A program made the position numbers and the translations under genes. DNA of 30,381 bases from a virus: positions 1 through 30,381 of IMG/VR virus record IMGVR_UViG_3300046542_000607, one strand, 5' to 3'. The notes under the pieces were generated by a model, which was not told where the DNA came from, searched no databases, and was given only the letters and a program-made list of their open reading frames with translations. Positions within the stretch are counted from its first letter, which is position 1, and each line of letters starts with the position of its first letter. Shown here piece after piece: positions 1 through 28,097 of the stretch.

Positions 1-420
1 ATGAATGCAAATAAAACCGGTCGGCGGAATAGGCGCTGGATCCTCCTGATACTCGTCGCCCTTCCAATCGCTTTTTGGTATTTCGGCTTCCCAGTCGTAG
101 CGGTGAATTTCTCCCCAAACAGCGAGGGAGAATTTCACTACGTCTGGAATACTCAAGACAGGATTCATAGAGGCGATATCAAGCACGGTGGCTCGGCCGT
201 TGAGTTCGGCTACCTATTCCCCGATGACGACTTTTTCATGATGTTCGATTGGTGGACTGATAAAGGTTTTCAGAGGTGCATCGACATCACCCCCAAATGG
301 GGTCGAACCATTGACATCTATCTGGATGAAACAGGCAGGATCGATATCGCTAAAACAGGCCCGGACGTTATTTCTAGATTGAAGCAATGCACCGGCGAGC
401 CTGACCCTTTCCGGTCATAG
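1..420 (+). CDS. Small membrane-anchored protein of unknown function
   Basis: This is a 139-aa ORF whose ATG is the first base of the window, so an upstream extension or RBS cannot be seen. The N-terminus is basic (KTGRRNRR), followed by one hydrophobic segment at about residues 13-35, then a soluble region rich in aromatic and acidic residues. That pattern fits an inner-membrane anchor with a periplasmic domain. I recognise no family. It lies outside the proposed prophage junction at about 983-1006, so it is probably a host gene. Confidence 0.55.
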   Translation: MNANKTGRRNRRWILLILVALPIAFWYFGFPVVAVNFSPNSEGEFHYVWNTQDRIHRGDIKHGGSAVEFGYLFPDDDFFMMFDWWTDKGFQRCIDITPKWGRTIDIYLDETGRIDIAKTGPDVISRLKQCTGEPDPFRS

Positions 421-1814: not shown

Positions 1815-3089
1815 ATGCTCGTGCAGTTCAGTGTCGAAAACTATCGATCGGTCAAGGATGTCTGCGAGCTAAGCATGGTTGCGTCTCGGTATTACAAAGA
1901 AAACGAAGAAGAAAATACATTTGAGACAGGTATTGCAGATTGCCCGCGCTTACTCAAATCAGTAGTGATTTACGGCCCAAACGGATCTGGTAAAAGCACT
2001 CTCCTCGAAGCTATGAAGTTCGTGGAAACTTTTGTATTGAAATCCGCGCCCAAGTCTCAAGCAGGCGAGGAAATCAATGTAACGCCTTTTCGCCTATCTA
2101 AAGACACCAGGAACAAACCATCAAACTTTGAAATAATCTTTATTGAAGATAACGTCCGTTATGAGTACGGCTTATGCACCACGCGAGAACGCGTTATGGA
2201 AGAGTGGTTGATTGCCTTCCCTAACGGAGTATCTCAAAAATGGTTCCATAGGGTTTACGACGCGGACACCGAAACCTATGCATATAAGTACTCGAAATAC
2301 TTTGAGGGTGGACGGCTGCGCGGCATTTGGCAAAAACAAACCCGCCAGAATGCGTCATATTTATCTACTGCAATCCAGCTAAATAATGAGCAGCTTACTC
2401 CTGTATACAATTGGTTTTTCCGTAGATTGGCCACACTTCGCCCTGATGGTCTTTCATCGGAGTTCACAGCAGAATACTGCCTTGATAGCGACTTCAAAAA
2501 AAGCGTTATTGAGTTTATCAGCAGTGCCGACATCCCCTTAACAAACATTGAAGTCGAAACATTGAAGTACTTGGATATGAAGTTTCCAGAGCATATCCCA
2601 ACGGCCTTCAGAGAAGAAATCACAAAATCACTAAAAGACAAAGAGTATCACGAAGTCAGCTTCGTAAGAACAGACGACGCTGGCGAGAGTGTTAGATTCA
2701 AACTATCTGAAGAATCACAGGGCACTCAGGGACTATTTAATTTTGCGGGCCCATGGATAGATGTGATTGCAAACGACTTAGTATTGTTCGTTGACGAACT
2801 GGATAGCAGTCTGCACCCTTTGATTGTTCACCATCTTGTTGACATCTTGCATAAGTCTGGCTCAAACGCACAAATCATTTTCACAACACATGACACGACG
2901 ATTCTTTCTCAAAAAATCCTTCGTCGGGACCAAGTGTGGCTTCTTAAAAAGAACAAACTTCACGCCTCGGAGCTTTACCCATTATCTGATTACAAAATCC
3001 GCGATGGCGAGGCAATTGAAAAAGGCTACCTTTCGGGTCGCTATGGCGCAGTTCCGTTCATCAAGGATATGAGCTTCAATGGGATCTGA
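1815..3089 (+). CDS. RloA/AbiLi-like AAA ATPase, defence pair component
   Basis: This is a 424-aa AAA15/AAA21-type ATPase. The Walker A motif is GPNGSGKS at about residues 54-61. The Walker B region (LFVDELDSSLHP) is near residues 322-333 and the H-loop (FTTHD) near 356-360. A strong RBS (AAGGAAAG) precedes the ATG. It overlaps the RloB-like gene by 11 bp, so the two are translationally coupled. Such ATPases pair with TOPRIM-like effectors in abortive-infection loci (RloA/RloB, lactococcal AbiL). The usual view is that the ATPase senses infection and releases the effector. Its AT-rich codons contrast with the phage core, marking it as acquired cargo. The family call is firm; an anti-phage role here is inferred. 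Confidence 0.85.
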   Translation: MLVQFSVENYRSVKDVCELSMVASRYYKENEEENTFETGIADCPRLLKSVVIYGPNGSGKSTLLEAMKFVETFVLKSAPKSQAGEEINVTPFRLSKDTRNKPSNFEIIFIEDNVRYEYGLCTTRERVMEEWLIAFPNGVSQKWFHRVYDADTETYAYKYSKYFEGGRLRGIWQKQTRQNASYLSTAIQLNNEQLTPVYNWFFRRLATLRPDGLSSEFTAEYCLDSDFKKSVIEFISSADIPLTNIEVETLKYLDMKFPEHIPTAFREEITKSLKDKEYHEVSFVRTDDAGESVRFKLSEESQGTQGLFNFAGPWIDVIANDLVLFVDELDSSLHPLIVHHLVDILHKSGSNAQIIFTTHDTTILSQKILRRDQVWLLKKNKLHASELYPLSDYKIRDGEAIEKGYLSGRYGAVPFIKDMSFNGI

Positions 3090-3750
3090 AAACTTGTTTC
3101 ATCTGAGAAAAGGAAAAACAACGAGATCTCTATCAAGGAGGGGGCCAATGAAAGACTCCGCCCCTATTTACTTGATTGTCTGCGAAGGAAAAAAAACCGA
3201 GCCTGAATATTTTAACGACTTGCGAAATCACGAACGACTTGCGAGCATAACAGTAAAAGTATGCGGTGAATGTGGATCTGCGCCGATCTCCGTTGTAGAA
3301 CATGCTATACAGCTCTATAAGGATATGACAAAAGAGGGAGAAACAGTCGAGGGAATTTTCTGTGTTTTCGACAAAGACAACCACGAAAGCTTCTTTCGAG
3401 CCTGCGCCCTAATCGAAAAATCAAAAAAAGAGAATATGCCTATCACCGCGGTGTTTTCAATACCGTGCTTTGAATACTGGTTGTTACTTCACTTCCAGTA
3501 CAACCGAGCACCATTCCAAGGTAAAGGTAATGCTAGTATTGCCGGAGTAGTCTGCAAGCAAGTGCAGGCTCATATTAAGGGATATACCAAAGGTGCTAAA
3601 GGATTATACGCAAAGTTAAAATGTAAACAGGCGGATGCCATTTCACACTCTCAGCGTGCTATTGAGGACGTTGATGCTACGGGTCAAGACAATCCTTCGA
3701 CTTATGTTCATACACTTGTCGAACAGCTTCTGAAGTACTCTGACGCGTAG
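3079..3750 (+). CDS. RloB/AbiLii-like protein, probable TOPRIM-type effector
   Basis: This 223-aa protein begins with MGSENLFHLRK, matching the usual basic N-terminus of RloB proteins, which supports the start at 3079 rather than the internal ATG at 3148. Family motifs are VCEGKKTEPEYF (about residues 34-45, acidic TOPRIM-like site), FDKD (about 97-100) and PCFEYWLLLHF (about 134-144). It lies directly after the ATPase with an 11-bp overlap and is the likely toxic or nucleolytic partner. No transporter or modification genes accompany it, so this is a two-gene system. Substrate and trigger cannot be read from sequence. Confidence 0.83.
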   Translation: MGSENLFHLRKGKTTRSLSRRGPMKDSAPIYLIVCEGKKTEPEYFNDLRNHERLASITVKVCGECGSAPISVVEHAIQLYKDMTKEGETVEGIFCVFDKDNHESFFRACALIEKSKKENMPITAVFSIPCFEYWLLLHFQYNRAPFQGKGNASIAGVVCKQVQAHIKGYTKGAKGLYAKLKCKQADAISHSQRAIEDVDATGQDNPSTYVHTLVEQLLKYSDA

Positions 3751-4301: not shown

Positions 4302-4324
4302 ATACTGTCTGCATATACAGTATT
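4121..4324 (-). pseudogene. Possible remnant of a leftward gene
   Basis: The frame is open for 68 codons and reads as ordinary protein with GC-ending codons, for example SSGEWGYIYSATDGIG and LIPLPPTGYTWFFYAK, ending in TAA at 4121-4123. It has no ATG, GTG or usable TTG near its 5' end, and its upstream end runs into the LexA box. A neighbouring frame has an ATG inside the box but gives Arg/Ser-rich, shadow-like sequence. It may be a 5'-truncated gene. No family recognised. Confidence 0.25.
4302..4323. promoter_or_regulatory. LexA (SOS) box
   Basis: The site has 7-bp perfect dyad arms ATACTGT and ACAGTAT with an 8-base centre, giving the gamma-proteobacterial LexA pattern CTG-N10-CAG flanked by TA. 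It ends 22 bases before the ATG of the downstream cassette, where bound LexA would block transcription. TATACT (4301-4306) and TATACA (4314-4319) within it could serve as a -10. Confidence 0.85.
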
Positions 4325-4345
4325 TCAACAGGGTACGTGTGTCCG

Positions 4346-4597
4346 ATGAATAGAGAATCTGCGGCAGCTTTGACTCCGGTTTCGTCCGGGGTTGCGCAAT
4401 GGCAGGTCATGCTGCGCGATGAGGAGGCGTTGCTCGCAATGCCCGGTGCCCATCACAAAGCGTTGCTCAGGCAAGCCCGTGCACTGCACCAGGACCATAT
4501 GATCGATGCTGACGAATTAGGCGACTTTCTAGAGTTAGCGGACGCGGCGCTAGCCTACGCAGTCGAATCGCTACTTGACCTCGACGCTGACGAGTAG
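4346..4597 (+). CDS. LexA-controlled small acidic protein, first gene of SOS cassette
   Basis: This is an 83-aa protein, or 86 aa if translation starts at the GTG at 4337. AGGG at 4330-4333 lies 12 bases before the ATG and only 3 before the GTG, so the start is not settled. The protein is helical and acidic, with a segment QWQVMLRDEEALLAMPG and a C-terminus ending LLDLDADE. There is no TM segment and no recognised domain. It is the first gene behind a LexA box and is followed after 8 bases by the gene at 4606. An SOS-induced phage function such as an antirepressor is a reasonable guess, not shown. Confidence 0.75.
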   Translation: MNRESAAALTPVSSGVAQWQVMLRDEEALLAMPGAHHKALLRQARALHQDHMIDADELGDFLELADAALAYAVESLLDLDADE

Positions 4598-4902: not shown

Positions 4903-4973
4903 TAGGTTTATACCTATCGTTATGTGATATAGAGCAGAGAGGAAATATACAAAGAAGCCAACACCAGGTGCAG

Positions 4974-6221
4974 ATGATGGATCAAAACAACGACAAAAAA
5001 TGTATCTACTGCACTCGCAGTGGTCCGTTCTCTGACGAACATGTATTCCCCGCAGGAATGGGCGGCGATGACAAAGACTTTTTATTAGAGGACTTGGTTT
5101 GCGCCGACTGCAATACAACAATTTTCTCTCCTTTGGAACTATCTCTGATGAGGCGCTCGCCGACAGGGTTAGGGCGGAAATTTCTTCAAAGCAAGACAAG
5201 AGAGAAGGGAAAGAGAACTACGAAACCTACAATCGAAACTAAAGGCCACTTTATAATTGATGAGTCTGGCGAGTACCTAGAGGCGGAGTATGACAAGGAA
5301 GGCAATGATATTGTACTTGCGCAATGTATATTCAAGGGTGACTCGATTAACTATGCGGCGCATGATCGAGACAATCTGAAGAAACTATATTCGGAGCTTT
5401 CCAAGCATCTGAATTCTTCAACCGTCGATCTTATTATAAAGAAAAGAGAGTTGACGGTAAGTTACGAAGTAACTACTTATGAGTGGGGGAAGGATGAGTA
5501 TGTACTTTCATCGATCGTGGAGCTGCCTAAAGCTCCGAAATTAGGGATTTGGCTGGAGGCAATGAGTAGTGCTCAGGCCTCTATATCGCCGCGATTTTAC
5601 CAAAGACCCAAGGGTCAGCTGGTTCTGAAGATCGGTCCGCAATCGAAGCCAGCAGAACTATTAAGAAGCATGCGAAGGACACTTCCTTCCATGCTAGCTA
5701 AGCAAGGGGAAGCGGCTGAAAACTCTATAAATCAGCCGGTCATCCATATTGAAATGCCCATAGATATGCATAGCACTGAAAGGGCAATTGCTAAAATAGG
5801 AGTAAATTTTCTAGCACACACTTTTGGACCTGAATTTGTTCGTCGCTCAGAGTTTGACAGGGTCAAGCAGTCTATACGGACGGGGCGCCCTGAGTTGCTT
5901 TTTTCTGCTTTTGGCCCAGAGGATGAAGACACAACAGTAGAATTATTTGGGTCGCCTCCTGCGCAGTGTCATTGCTTAATGCTAATAGGTGTGCCGTCAG
6001 ATAATGGATTTTGCGAGGTGTATTTTAATGCAAAATTGTATGGGTCTGGAGCATATCAAGTTACTCTGGCGCAAAGTCTCCCGCTCACTGATTTGTTTCA
6101 TCCGTTTTATTTCTTGGTTTACTATGAAGAAAACCGAATTGAAAAACTGTCGATGCTTGAATATCAATTAAGATACGGCGTATTGGTCCAGCGTTTTCTA
6201 GAGAGTGAAAACAATCAGTAG
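4974..6221 (+). CDS. HNH-type zinc-binding protein, probable nuclease cargo
   Basis: This protein is about 415 aa. Near the N-terminus it carries C-x2-C (CIYC), SDEHVFPAGMGG and then C-x2-CN (CADCN), the zinc-knuckle and histidine arrangement of HNH endonucleases. The remaining ~350 residues match nothing I know. AGGTG at 4966-4970 can serve ATG 4974 or 4977; the GTG at 4968 is less likely. The gene is AT-rich compared with the tail genes and points toward them, ending 25 bp from the convergent spike gene. That is a typical site for acquired cargo. The role could be defence, toxin or homing; the sequence does not decide. Confidence 0.7.
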   Translation: MMDQNNDKKCIYCTRSGPFSDEHVFPAGMGGDDKDFLLEDLVCADCNTTIFSPLELSLMRRSPTGLGRKFLQSKTREKGKRTTKPTIETKGHFIIDESGEYLEAEYDKEGNDIVLAQCIFKGDSINYAAHDRDNLKKLYSELSKHLNSSTVDLIIKKRELTVSYEVTTYEWGKDEYVLSSIVELPKAPKLGIWLEAMSSAQASISPRFYQRPKGQLVLKIGPQSKPAELLRSMRRTLPSMLAKQGEAAENSINQPVIHIEMPIDMHSTERAIAKIGVNFLAHTFGPEFVRRSEFDRVKQSIRTGRPELLFSAFGPEDEDTTVELFGSPPAQCHCLMLIGVPSDNGFCEVYFNAKLYGSGAYQVTLAQSLPLTDLFHPFYFLVYYEENRIEKLSMLEYQLRYGVLVQRFLESENNQ

Positions 6222-26819: not shown

Positions 26820-27077
26820 ATGAGAGTTGTATGCAATTGCGGACACAAGGGCCGGATTGCCTCGCGGGAAGAGGTAACCAGAGCCTTTGTAAAACTGTAC
26901 TGCCAGTGCCTGGACGCAAAGTGCGGGCACACATGGGTGGCAAATCTGACGTTCTCGCACACGCTCAGTCCGTCATCGCAGACATTCGAGCGGATGCTGA
27001 TCGATCGCTTGCGGGAAATGCCCCGAGCGAAGCAGCGGGAGCTTTTCGAGCAGTTGGGATCGCAGGCGGTGGCATAG
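26820..27077 (+). CDS. ogr: Ogr/Delta-type zinc-finger late activator
   Basis: This 85-aa protein has the Ogr signature: C5-x-C7 near the N-terminus, C30-x4-C35, then GHTWVANLTFSHTLSPS. Ogr proteins activate phage late promoters by contacting the RNA polymerase alpha subunit. A strong RBS (GGGAGGG) precedes the ATG. It follows the portal by 96 bp, whereas in P2 ogr is at the far end of gene D, so its location here is different. The likely target is the O/P intergenic region. Confidence 0.88.
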   Translation: MRVVCNCGHKGRIASREEVTRAFVKLYCQCLDAKCGHTWVANLTFSHTLSPSSQTFERMLIDRLREMPRAKQRELFEQLGSQAVA

Positions 27078-27132: not shown

Positions 27133-27318
27133 TCAGCCCTCAACTTTCTCCTTTGGGTTGATTGCCAGTATCTCGGCCACGCGACGAACCTGTTGCTGTT
27201 CAATGCGGCTCAGCCGGCGATACAGATCGATCAGTCGACGCTCAATGTCCGTGAGTACGGTAGTTTCCGACCCGGCGTGTTCGAGGTTGATGTGATCGTT
27301 CTTCTTGCGATCCAACAT
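27133..27318 (-). CDS. Mini-protein resembling the repressor C-terminal segment
   Basis: This is a 61-aa protein with a good RBS (GGAG, 8 bases before ATG). Its residues LTDIERRLIDLYRRLSRI and QQQVRRVAEILA align without gaps to the C-terminus of the XRE repressor encoded next to it (LTEVEDCLVNQF, DQKAIRRILEAMA), with 10 identities and about 9 conservative changes over 34 positions. It has no HTH. A 9-bp inverted repeat overlaps its RBS. It may modulate the repressor by mixed oligomers; this is inference. Confidence 0.7.
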   Translation of the reverse strand: MLDRKKNDHINLEHAGSETTVLTDIERRLIDLYRRLSRIEQQQVRRVAEILAINPKEKVEG

Positions 27319-27328
27319 GCTAACTACT

Positions 27329-27360
27329 CCATAAAGTGCATTGCTGAATGGACTTTATGG
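27329..27360 (-). promoter_or_regulatory. Hairpin covering the RBS of the mini-protein gene
   Basis: On the minus strand CCATAAAGT and ACTTTATGG are perfect 9-base arms separated by 14 bases. The second arm ends in the GG of the GGAG Shine-Dalgarno for the gene starting at 27318. The hairpin would hinder ribosome loading on transcripts running through from the repressor gene. It could equally be a protein-binding dyad. Confidence 0.45.
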
Positions 27361-27420
27361 GGGGTGCGCAACTGCATTGGAATAAGAGATACCCCAATCA
27401 CTGTGCGGGATTGTTGCGAG

Positions 27421-27771
27421 TTAAGACCGGTGCCTGGCGACGTCGTCGGCCATCGCTTCAAGGATGCGGCGAATAGCCTTTTGGTCATCCTCTGGAATGC
27501 TTCGGAACTGGTTTACCAGACAGTCTTCGACTTCCGTCAGTGCTTCATTCGCCAACGTCTTTCGCGATCCGTGAACGATATACGCAACGTCAAAATCGAG
27601 CAGAGAGTTAGCAAGGCTCAGGTAGGACGCAGGCGCATCACTCGCACCCGATTCGTAGTTGCCTTGGGTACGTTTAGACACGCCAAGTTTTTCAGCCAGT
27701 TGATCTTGAGTCAGGCCAGCACCGGCGCGAAGTTCCCGCAGCCTGGCGCCGATCTCTTCAGAAAGAGTCAA
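27421..27771 (-). CDS. XRE-family phage repressor (CI-like)
   Basis: This 116-aa protein is read from TTG 27771 (MTLSEEIGARLREL), with GTGGA 6 bases upstream. A GTG at 27813 would add 14 Cys-rich residues and cross the operator region. HTH_3 spans about residues 5-60 (LTQDQLAEKLGVSKRTQGNYESG shortened to LTQDQLAEKLGVSKRTQ). The C-terminus is a short helical segment with no LexA/S24 peptidase domain, so RecA-driven self-cleavage is unlikely. It faces the Cro-like gene across about 84 bp of operator DNA. Confidence 0.87.
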   Translation of the reverse strand: MTLSEEIGARLRELRAGAGLTQDQLAEKLGVSKRTQGNYESGASDAPASYLSLANSLLDFDVAYIVHGSRKTLANEALTEVEDCLVNQFRSIPEDDQKAIRRILEAMADDVARHRS

Positions 27772-27789
27772 TATTTTTCCACTCGCATA

Positions 27790-27815
27790 TTTACATTGGC
27801 AGTTTTTTGCCACAT
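27790..27815. promoter_or_regulatory. Candidate operator between repressor and Cro-like genes
   Basis: The region holds TGGCA and TGCCA around a 6-base T-rich centre, with ACATT/AATGT-like flanks, in the 84-bp divergent gap. This is where the repressor and the Cro-like protein should compete. The promoters themselves are not clear by eye. Confidence 0.4.
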
Positions 27816-27855
27816 TCTGCGCTCGTCATCACACGAAAACGCAGAGATTTGCACT

Positions 27856-28068
27856 ATGCCGAACACAAGCATCACCGAGCAAGCCCGCAAAAAAGCCCGT
27901 GAAGCGCTGGAGAAGCGCGGTCAGTCCGCGAAAGATTTTGCTGCTATGCACAACCTGAGTCCCAGCACTGTTTATGCGGTGCTGAGTGGACAGAGCCAAT
28001 GTCGCCGTGGGGAGGCACACCGAGCCGCCGTTTTATTAGGCGTCAAACAAGGTGTGATCGAACAGTAA
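27856..28068 (+). CDS. Cro-like DNA-binding protein (BcepMu gp16 family)
   Basis: This 70-aa protein from ATG 27856 has the arrangement KKAREALEKRGQSAKDFA, SPSTVYAVLSGQ, then RRGEAHRAAVLLGVK, matching the BcepMu gp16 family of small phage HTH proteins. It is the first gene of the rightward early operon, directly opposite the repressor, so a Cro-type role in the lytic switch is likely. A longer open frame starting at 27193 is a shadow across the repressor genes. Confidence 0.85.
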   Translation: MPNTSITEQARKKAREALEKRGQSAKDFAAMHNLSPSTVYAVLSGQSQCRRGEAHRAAVLLGVKQGVIEQ

Positions 28069-28097
28069 TGGCATGGGCCAACAGGGAAAAGTAGAAG

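Follow-up and report, generated by a model that had tools for sequence, protein, structure and literature searches.

What role does a small gene play that sits directly behind a phage repressor gene and encodes a likeness of that repressor's own C-terminus? The question is raised by the window analyzed here, the whole 30,381-nucleotide (nt) virus record IMGVR_UViG_3300046542_000607, which carries a P2-type portal gene together with ogr, cox and a CII-like gene. In it, a protein of 61 amino acids (aa), hereafter the mini-protein, is encoded 102 nt behind the gene of a repressor with an N-terminal helix-turn-helix (HTH) domain, on the same strand and ahead of the convergent ogr gene. We put forward, at roughly even odds (probability about 0.5), that the mini-protein is a duplicate of the repressor's C-terminal oligomerisation hook that hetero-oligomerises with the repressor and limits its operator binding, setting the threshold between lysogeny and lysis. 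The elements concerned are the following.

27133-27318, minus strand: mini-protein gene (open reading frame of 61 aa, ATG start), with a conserved hairpin and a variable N-terminus
27163-27255, minus strand: two-helix hairpin of the mini-protein (residues 22-52), aligned to the repressor tail, helices predicted
27421-27813, minus strand: phage repressor gene with N-terminal HTH (HTH_31, E 1e-10), in CI-type position opposite cox
27448-27540, minus strand: C-terminal hook of the repressor (residues 92-122 of 130), the counterpart of the mini-protein by alignment and predicted helices

Similarity of the mini-protein and the repressor tail

A preliminary description of this locus had noted that the mini-protein lies on the repressor's strand just downstream of it and matches its C-terminus over 34 ungapped residues with 10 identities. 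Re-alignment and shuffling confirm both statements; the conservative pairs, given there as about 9, are slightly more numerous (11-12 further positive pairs). At 58, the local score is some 7 standard deviations (sd) above that of shuffled sequences (25 +/- 4.4, maximum 55, n=5000), none of which scored as high. When the mini-protein was searched against the entire record, it retrieved itself and the repressor C-terminus only (E 0.004). When a profile of 14 mini-proteins was compared with one of 14 repressor tails, the probability was 95.7 and the E value 9e-9 over 36 columns, and the search is reciprocal: the mini-protein profile retrieves repressor tails and the tail profile retrieves mini-proteins. 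A MAFFT alignment mixing separate repressors and mini-proteins placed the latter onto the repressor tail.

The likeness extends throughout the family. Across 99 non-redundant pairs the ungapped score of the 31-residue hairpin averages +46 against -21 +/- 12 for shuffles, and every pair exceeds the null by more than 3 sd. The tail consensus of these pairs is L-S-x-V-E-D-x-L-I-x-Q-Y/F-R-S-I-P-x-D-D-Q-x-A-I-R-R-F-L-x-A-M-A and that of the mini-proteins L-T-x-I-E-R-R-L-I-x-L-Y-R-x-L-S-x-x-E-Q-x-x-L/V-R-R-L-x-E-V/I-L-A. The two have hydrophobic as well as polar positions in common: Glu4, Arg12 and Arg24 are present in 99-100% of each, and D/E18 is (nearly) invariant in both. A fortuitous resemblance of two amphipathic helical segments deserves mention, given that the segment is short and that helical hairpins share hydrophobic spacing; nevertheless, the shuffles, the profile comparison and the invariant polar residues shared in 99 pairs make it very improbable, and we reject it. 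Duplication of the tail would be the simplest origin of the mini-protein. Searches of PDB sequences with the mini-protein and tail profiles found no credible relative, and SinI was not returned. The mini-protein belongs to phrog_23693, of unknown function; phrog_9368 is a weaker match which matched no genome, controls included, so nothing follows from it.

Exchange of the DNA-binding half and linkage of tail and mini-gene

The window has the hallmarks of Peduoviridae, that is, P2-like phages: a P2-type portal (phrog_68, E 2e-126), Ogr and the cox/repressor order, and its profile matches also include a YmfL/CII-like gene. At this region, Pseudomonas phage UFJF_PfPro (Peduoviridae) is the closest named relative; its annotation lists the mini-protein as "hypothetical protein". 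The repressor gene ends at 27421 and may start at TTG 27771 (116 aa, as annotated in UFJF_PfPro) or at GTG 27813 (130 aa). Around it lie three further features.

27511-28078, unstranded: swapped immunity cassette, comprising the repressor HTH, the operator region and the cox-like gene; delimited by a drop in DNA identity, borders approximate
27856-28068, plus strand: cox/Cro-like HTH protein of the BcepMu gp16 family (TIGR04111, E 4e-20; phrog_925), divergent from the repressor
26820-27077, plus strand: Ogr/Delta-like late activator (PF04606, E 1e-10), convergent with the mini-gene

When phages with flanks of 95-100% identity are compared, DNA identity falls to 40-60% over the stretch running from cox to the repressor HTH, while the last ~25-35 codons of the repressor, the spacer and the mini-gene remain ~97-99% identical across the cassette swaps. 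At least four HTH types (A, B, C and D) are found on related tails. To judge from these comparisons, the repressor is modular: DNA-binding domain, operators and cox are exchanged, and tail and mini-gene stay constant. A comparable arrangement occurs in Citexvirus. The HTHs of Dobby and Sirocco differ, their tails are nearly the same, and an identical 38-aa mini-protein is encoded ~150 nt downstream. The resemblance of this protein to its own repressor tail is weak (65 of 2000 shuffles as good), and the Citexvirus case therefore rests on position and swap pattern. Different HTH types also meet within single hosts: one Pseudomonas fluorescens polylysogen carries four such prophages, each with an HTH of a different type, and two further genomes hold types A and B, and A and C, respectively, with similar tails and mini-proteins.

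L232 2486-2602, L233 2491-2607 and L234 2486-2602: 38-aa hairpin-like protein of Citexvirus (Dobby, Sirocco, D14A)
L242, L247, L250 and L251: the four prophage loci of the one polylysogenic genome
L238 and L246; L240 and L248: prophage loci of the two further genomes

Scans with the mini-protein, with the tail and with the HTH yielded about 140 distinct repressor/mini-gene pairs in phage and prophage loci (98 distinct pairs at one scan stage), the host being Pseudomonas wherever it is named. Loci found by the HTH alone carry both tail and mini-gene in 79 of 80 cases, and in the remaining one the contig breaks off 129 nt past the repressor. The mini-protein profile matches in 38 of 398 Pseudomonas genomes; in all 27 loci inspected from the Pseudomonas genome searches, very divergent ones included, an upstream repressor scores to the tail profile. 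The proximity of homologues to such repressors, on which the preliminary description had staked its proposal, is thus borne out: every testable homologue lies ~61-158 nt downstream of a tail-bearing repressor. Among 369 Gammaproteobacteria, the hairpin profile found nothing credible beyond one Pseudomonas genome already in the set; one weak match elsewhere in this sample contains an internal stop and was judged to be chance.

The least biased test of linkage comes from 18 phage records of 29-43 kb picked by an unrelated gene ~20 kb away. Tail and mini-gene are both present in the same 11 and both missing from the other 7 (~3e-5, exact test). A cleavable repressor of S24 type occurs in two of these seven records, which may be fragments, and no S24 match was found in the 11 tail-bearing records; likewise, a Pfam scan of the window repressor gave no match to Peptidase_S24. 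This co-occurrence (11/11 vs 0/7) and the shared invariant polar residues speak against the earlier suggestion that repressor and mini-protein independently represent a common helical motif.

Among 81 distinct mini-gene DNA sequences, the ratio of nonsynonymous to synonymous polymorphism (pN/pS) is 0.15 for the hairpin, and the N-terminal 17 residues reach 0.63; no internal stop occurs in the mini-gene among the matches listed from the Pseudomonas genome searches. On this pattern of substitution, the mini-gene is a selected gene, constrained in its hairpin and not in its N-terminus. These data also bear on a scenario in which the mini-protein, although derived from the tail, now acts independently, for instance as a homodimer with another target, its linkage to the repressor being mere proximity. 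The variable N-terminus would suit such a role, as would two results given below, the absence of confident docking and of any cognate-specific signal; but the mini-gene tracks the tail exactly in the 18 records, the arrangement recurs in two separate phage groups and constraint falls on the hairpin, so we regard this scenario as unlikely.

Predicted structure, mechanism and alternatives

We ran AlphaFold2 on the in-frame read-through of repressor, spacer and mini-protein of the window (stop codons, TAA, read as Q). The repressor HTH is confident (predicted local distance difference test, pLDDT, ~90). Helices are predicted at 94-104 and 108-134 of the tail (read-through numbering) and at residues 24-34 and 38-53 of the mini-protein, that is, at equivalent alignment positions and in the same register, a result repeated with 42 sequences (pLDDT 74-79). 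The top Foldseek match of the model is SinR (1b0n_A); VIA-align gives Z 9.8 over 101 residues (model 20..127) with a root-mean-square deviation of 6.9, the hook part having moderate pLDDT. The repressor model accordingly displays the SinR-type architecture of an HTH followed by a C-terminal two-helix hook. A kinship with HP1-like repressors, as previously assumed, finds no specific support, SinR being the best fold match, and with the RstR-type family NF041951 the repressor scores 42 bits, below the NCBIfam threshold of 80. A short tail-spacer-mini model returned no useful fold matches. The description of the mini-protein as a detached C-terminal domain is in turn well supported by shared ancestry, the same predicted two-helix hairpin and the constant genomic neighbourhood.

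In Bacillus, SinI, a small protein homologous to the two-helix hook of the repressor SinR, heterodimerises with SinR and stops its DNA binding (PMC3163267). SinR of Bacillus subtilis has 111 aa, an HTH and a C-terminal two-helix hook, and is accompanied by an adjacent 57-aa hook homologue without HTH; a trait of SinI, homology of a small protein to the oligomerisation hook of a neighbouring HTH repressor, is found here as well. Because the anatomy is the same (HTH repressor, C-terminal hook, adjacent hook-only protein), hetero-oligomerisation appears the most likely mode of action. As a hook copy that has diverged and lacks any DNA-binding domain, the mini-protein would join the repressor through the hook; the hetero-oligomer would most likely bind operators less well, as when SinI acts on SinR, and the reduced repressor activity would set the threshold between lysogeny and lytic growth. 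Since the hook is common to repressors with different DNA-binding domains, the partnership would outlast immunity switching. Physical binding, its stoichiometry and a negative rather than a stabilising sign are what we infer. The setting differs from that of SinR/SinI, being a Pseudomonas phage immunity switch whose HTH is swapped between phages and whose heterodimer is presumptive, and sinI is under Spo0A control whereas the mini-gene lies downstream of the repressor, with no separate promoter recognised.

Several observations weigh against this proposal. The mini-protein has no SinI Pfam match up to E 1. The fusion models reach predicted template modelling (pTM) scores of only 0.36 and 0.28, without confident docking of the hairpins; shallow alignments and disordered linkers limit the test, and these values give no confident relative placement, so that binding is neither supported nor excluded by the models. 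The structure prediction envisaged earlier for the repressor plus mini-protein thus delivered a matching two-helix hairpin but not a confident complex. Mini-protein distances correlate with tail distances (r 0.50; partial correlation 0.52 when the HTH is controlled for) and not with HTH distances (partial -0.23); some of the tail correlation would, however, arise from tight physical linkage, and among the 99 pairs own tail-mini similarity does not exceed non-own similarity. A consensus scan found no separate promoter of the mini-gene; the mini-protein may therefore be co-produced with the repressor in lysogens, which would be odd for an antirepressor. Finally, no prophage with an intact repressor and a broken mini-gene was seen among the ~140 loci, which fits an essential partner too. 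The main doubt thus concerns the sign of the effect, as a gene that runs in the repressor's direction, shows no promoter and is never seen lost would also suit a stabilising subunit.

In an alternative scenario, the mini-protein binds the hook as a positive partner, co-translated with the repressor, which stabilises it or builds a larger cooperative complex and is needed for lysogeny. We consider this possible, if doubtful. Besides its position, missing promoter and persistence, a precedent exists in Hex of imm434, which shares the PRM mRNA with the repressor and stabilises lysogens (PMC3564112). Furthermore, SOS induction need not go through the mini-protein, because a small gene under a LexA box lies elsewhere in these phages and could serve that end, leaving the mini-protein no need to be an inducer. 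On the other hand, in SinR/SinI, the best-studied structural parallel, the hook devoid of DNA binding is inhibitory. Hex shares with the mini-protein its small size and its production beside the repressor in the lysogen, but protects a RecA-cleavable repressor, and the one considered here has no peptidase domain (no S24 match). A further alternative, which we hold to be improbable, is that the mini-protein serves chiefly in trans, as a weapon against or coordinator of heteroimmune phages of the same group, co-resident or incoming, through their hooks. The polylysogens with several HTH types on similar tails would provide the occasion, mini-proteins fit non-own tails as well as their own, and Gifsy antirepressors act on heteroimmune repressors (PMC3121763). 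However, the tail being shared, the phage's own repressor would be hit equally, and there is no evidence for expression restricted to infection.

Among other known systems, GfoA and GfhA of the Salmonella Gifsy phages are likewise small phage proteins, and their targets are repressors that are not cleaved and differ in operator specificity (PMC3121763), but the mini-gene lies directly behind the repressor gene and its product is tail-like. The Arbitrium repressor with AimX (PDB 9sf2, 9iaq; compared by entry titles only) involves a phage HTH repressor of similar size, with a fold match of Z 9.6, and a small antirepressor. In TF-smORF modules (Silpe et al. 2023; PMC10432266), too, small proteins of phages inactivate the lysis repressor; their genes are paired with a separate transcription factor, whereas none is seen beside the mini-gene and the mini-protein copies the repressor tail. 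We found no prior report of the repressor/mini-protein pair in open-licence papers. The principle is known; the family appears to be new, unannotated and in a new setting, its function being one we infer.

Leader, neighbouring genes and possible consequences for immunity

The leader of the mini-gene contains two elements.

27327-27330, minus strand: Shine-Dalgarno-like GGAG of the mini-gene, ~8 nt before the ATG, identified by sequence and kept in homologous leaders
27329-27360, minus strand: 32-nt dyad CCATAAAGT...ACTTTATGG with 14-nt arms, 93% complementary, whose end overlaps the mini-gene Shine-Dalgarno

The dyad would fold into a hairpin of -12.8 kcal/mol and shows one compensatory change in a subclade (AACGT/ACGTT). 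In distant phages only its right half and the leader sequence are kept and the dyad is imperfect, leaving a conserved RNA hairpin or operator unsupported across distant relatives. In several loci with a 75-nt spacer (L100, L123, L127, L141, L151 and others), repressor and mini-gene are in frame with a single intervening stop, read-through of which would yield a repressor-mini fusion. Because close relatives carry two stops, this arrangement is probably due to chance.

Elsewhere in the window, a LexA-box-like sequence, CTGTCTGCATATACAG (4305-4320, plus strand), lies shortly upstream of a gene (4337-4597, plus strand) for an 86-aa acidic protein, phrog_6137, of unknown function. The core CTGT-N8-ACAG is found upstream of this gene in 28 of 33 relatives, and the protein is a candidate SOS-controlled antirepressor. 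Phages lacking both tail and mini-gene carry this LexA-box gene too, which makes it less likely that the tail is retained solely as the target of a LexA-controlled antirepressor. Also on the plus strand, 1815-3750 encodes an AAA ATPase and an RloB-like protein matching AbiL (AbiLi/AbiLii) models, probably a prophage-borne defence cassette, near which lies a gene (4968-6221) whose 417-aa product weakly matches an HNH endonuclease.

The genes at issue are small, conserved and unannotated, appearing as "hypothetical protein" or under "unknown function". We tentatively suggest an immunity system in which the DNA-reading half is exchangeable while the hook is constant and common to all the repressors, and in which the free hook supplied by every phage would act on any such repressor and couple heteroimmune prophages by hook exchange. 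If the hook is indeed a binding surface, prophages that are independent by classical immunity tests would be coupled, and mixed oligomers, coordinated induction or dominance among heteroimmune prophages in one cell might follow. If hook duplicates limit repressors as proposed, the SinI principle, in which a free oligomerisation hook controls a repressor, would enter the control of phage lysogeny, and an exchange confined to the DNA-reading half would account for the ability of P2-like Pseudomonas phages to change immunity type.
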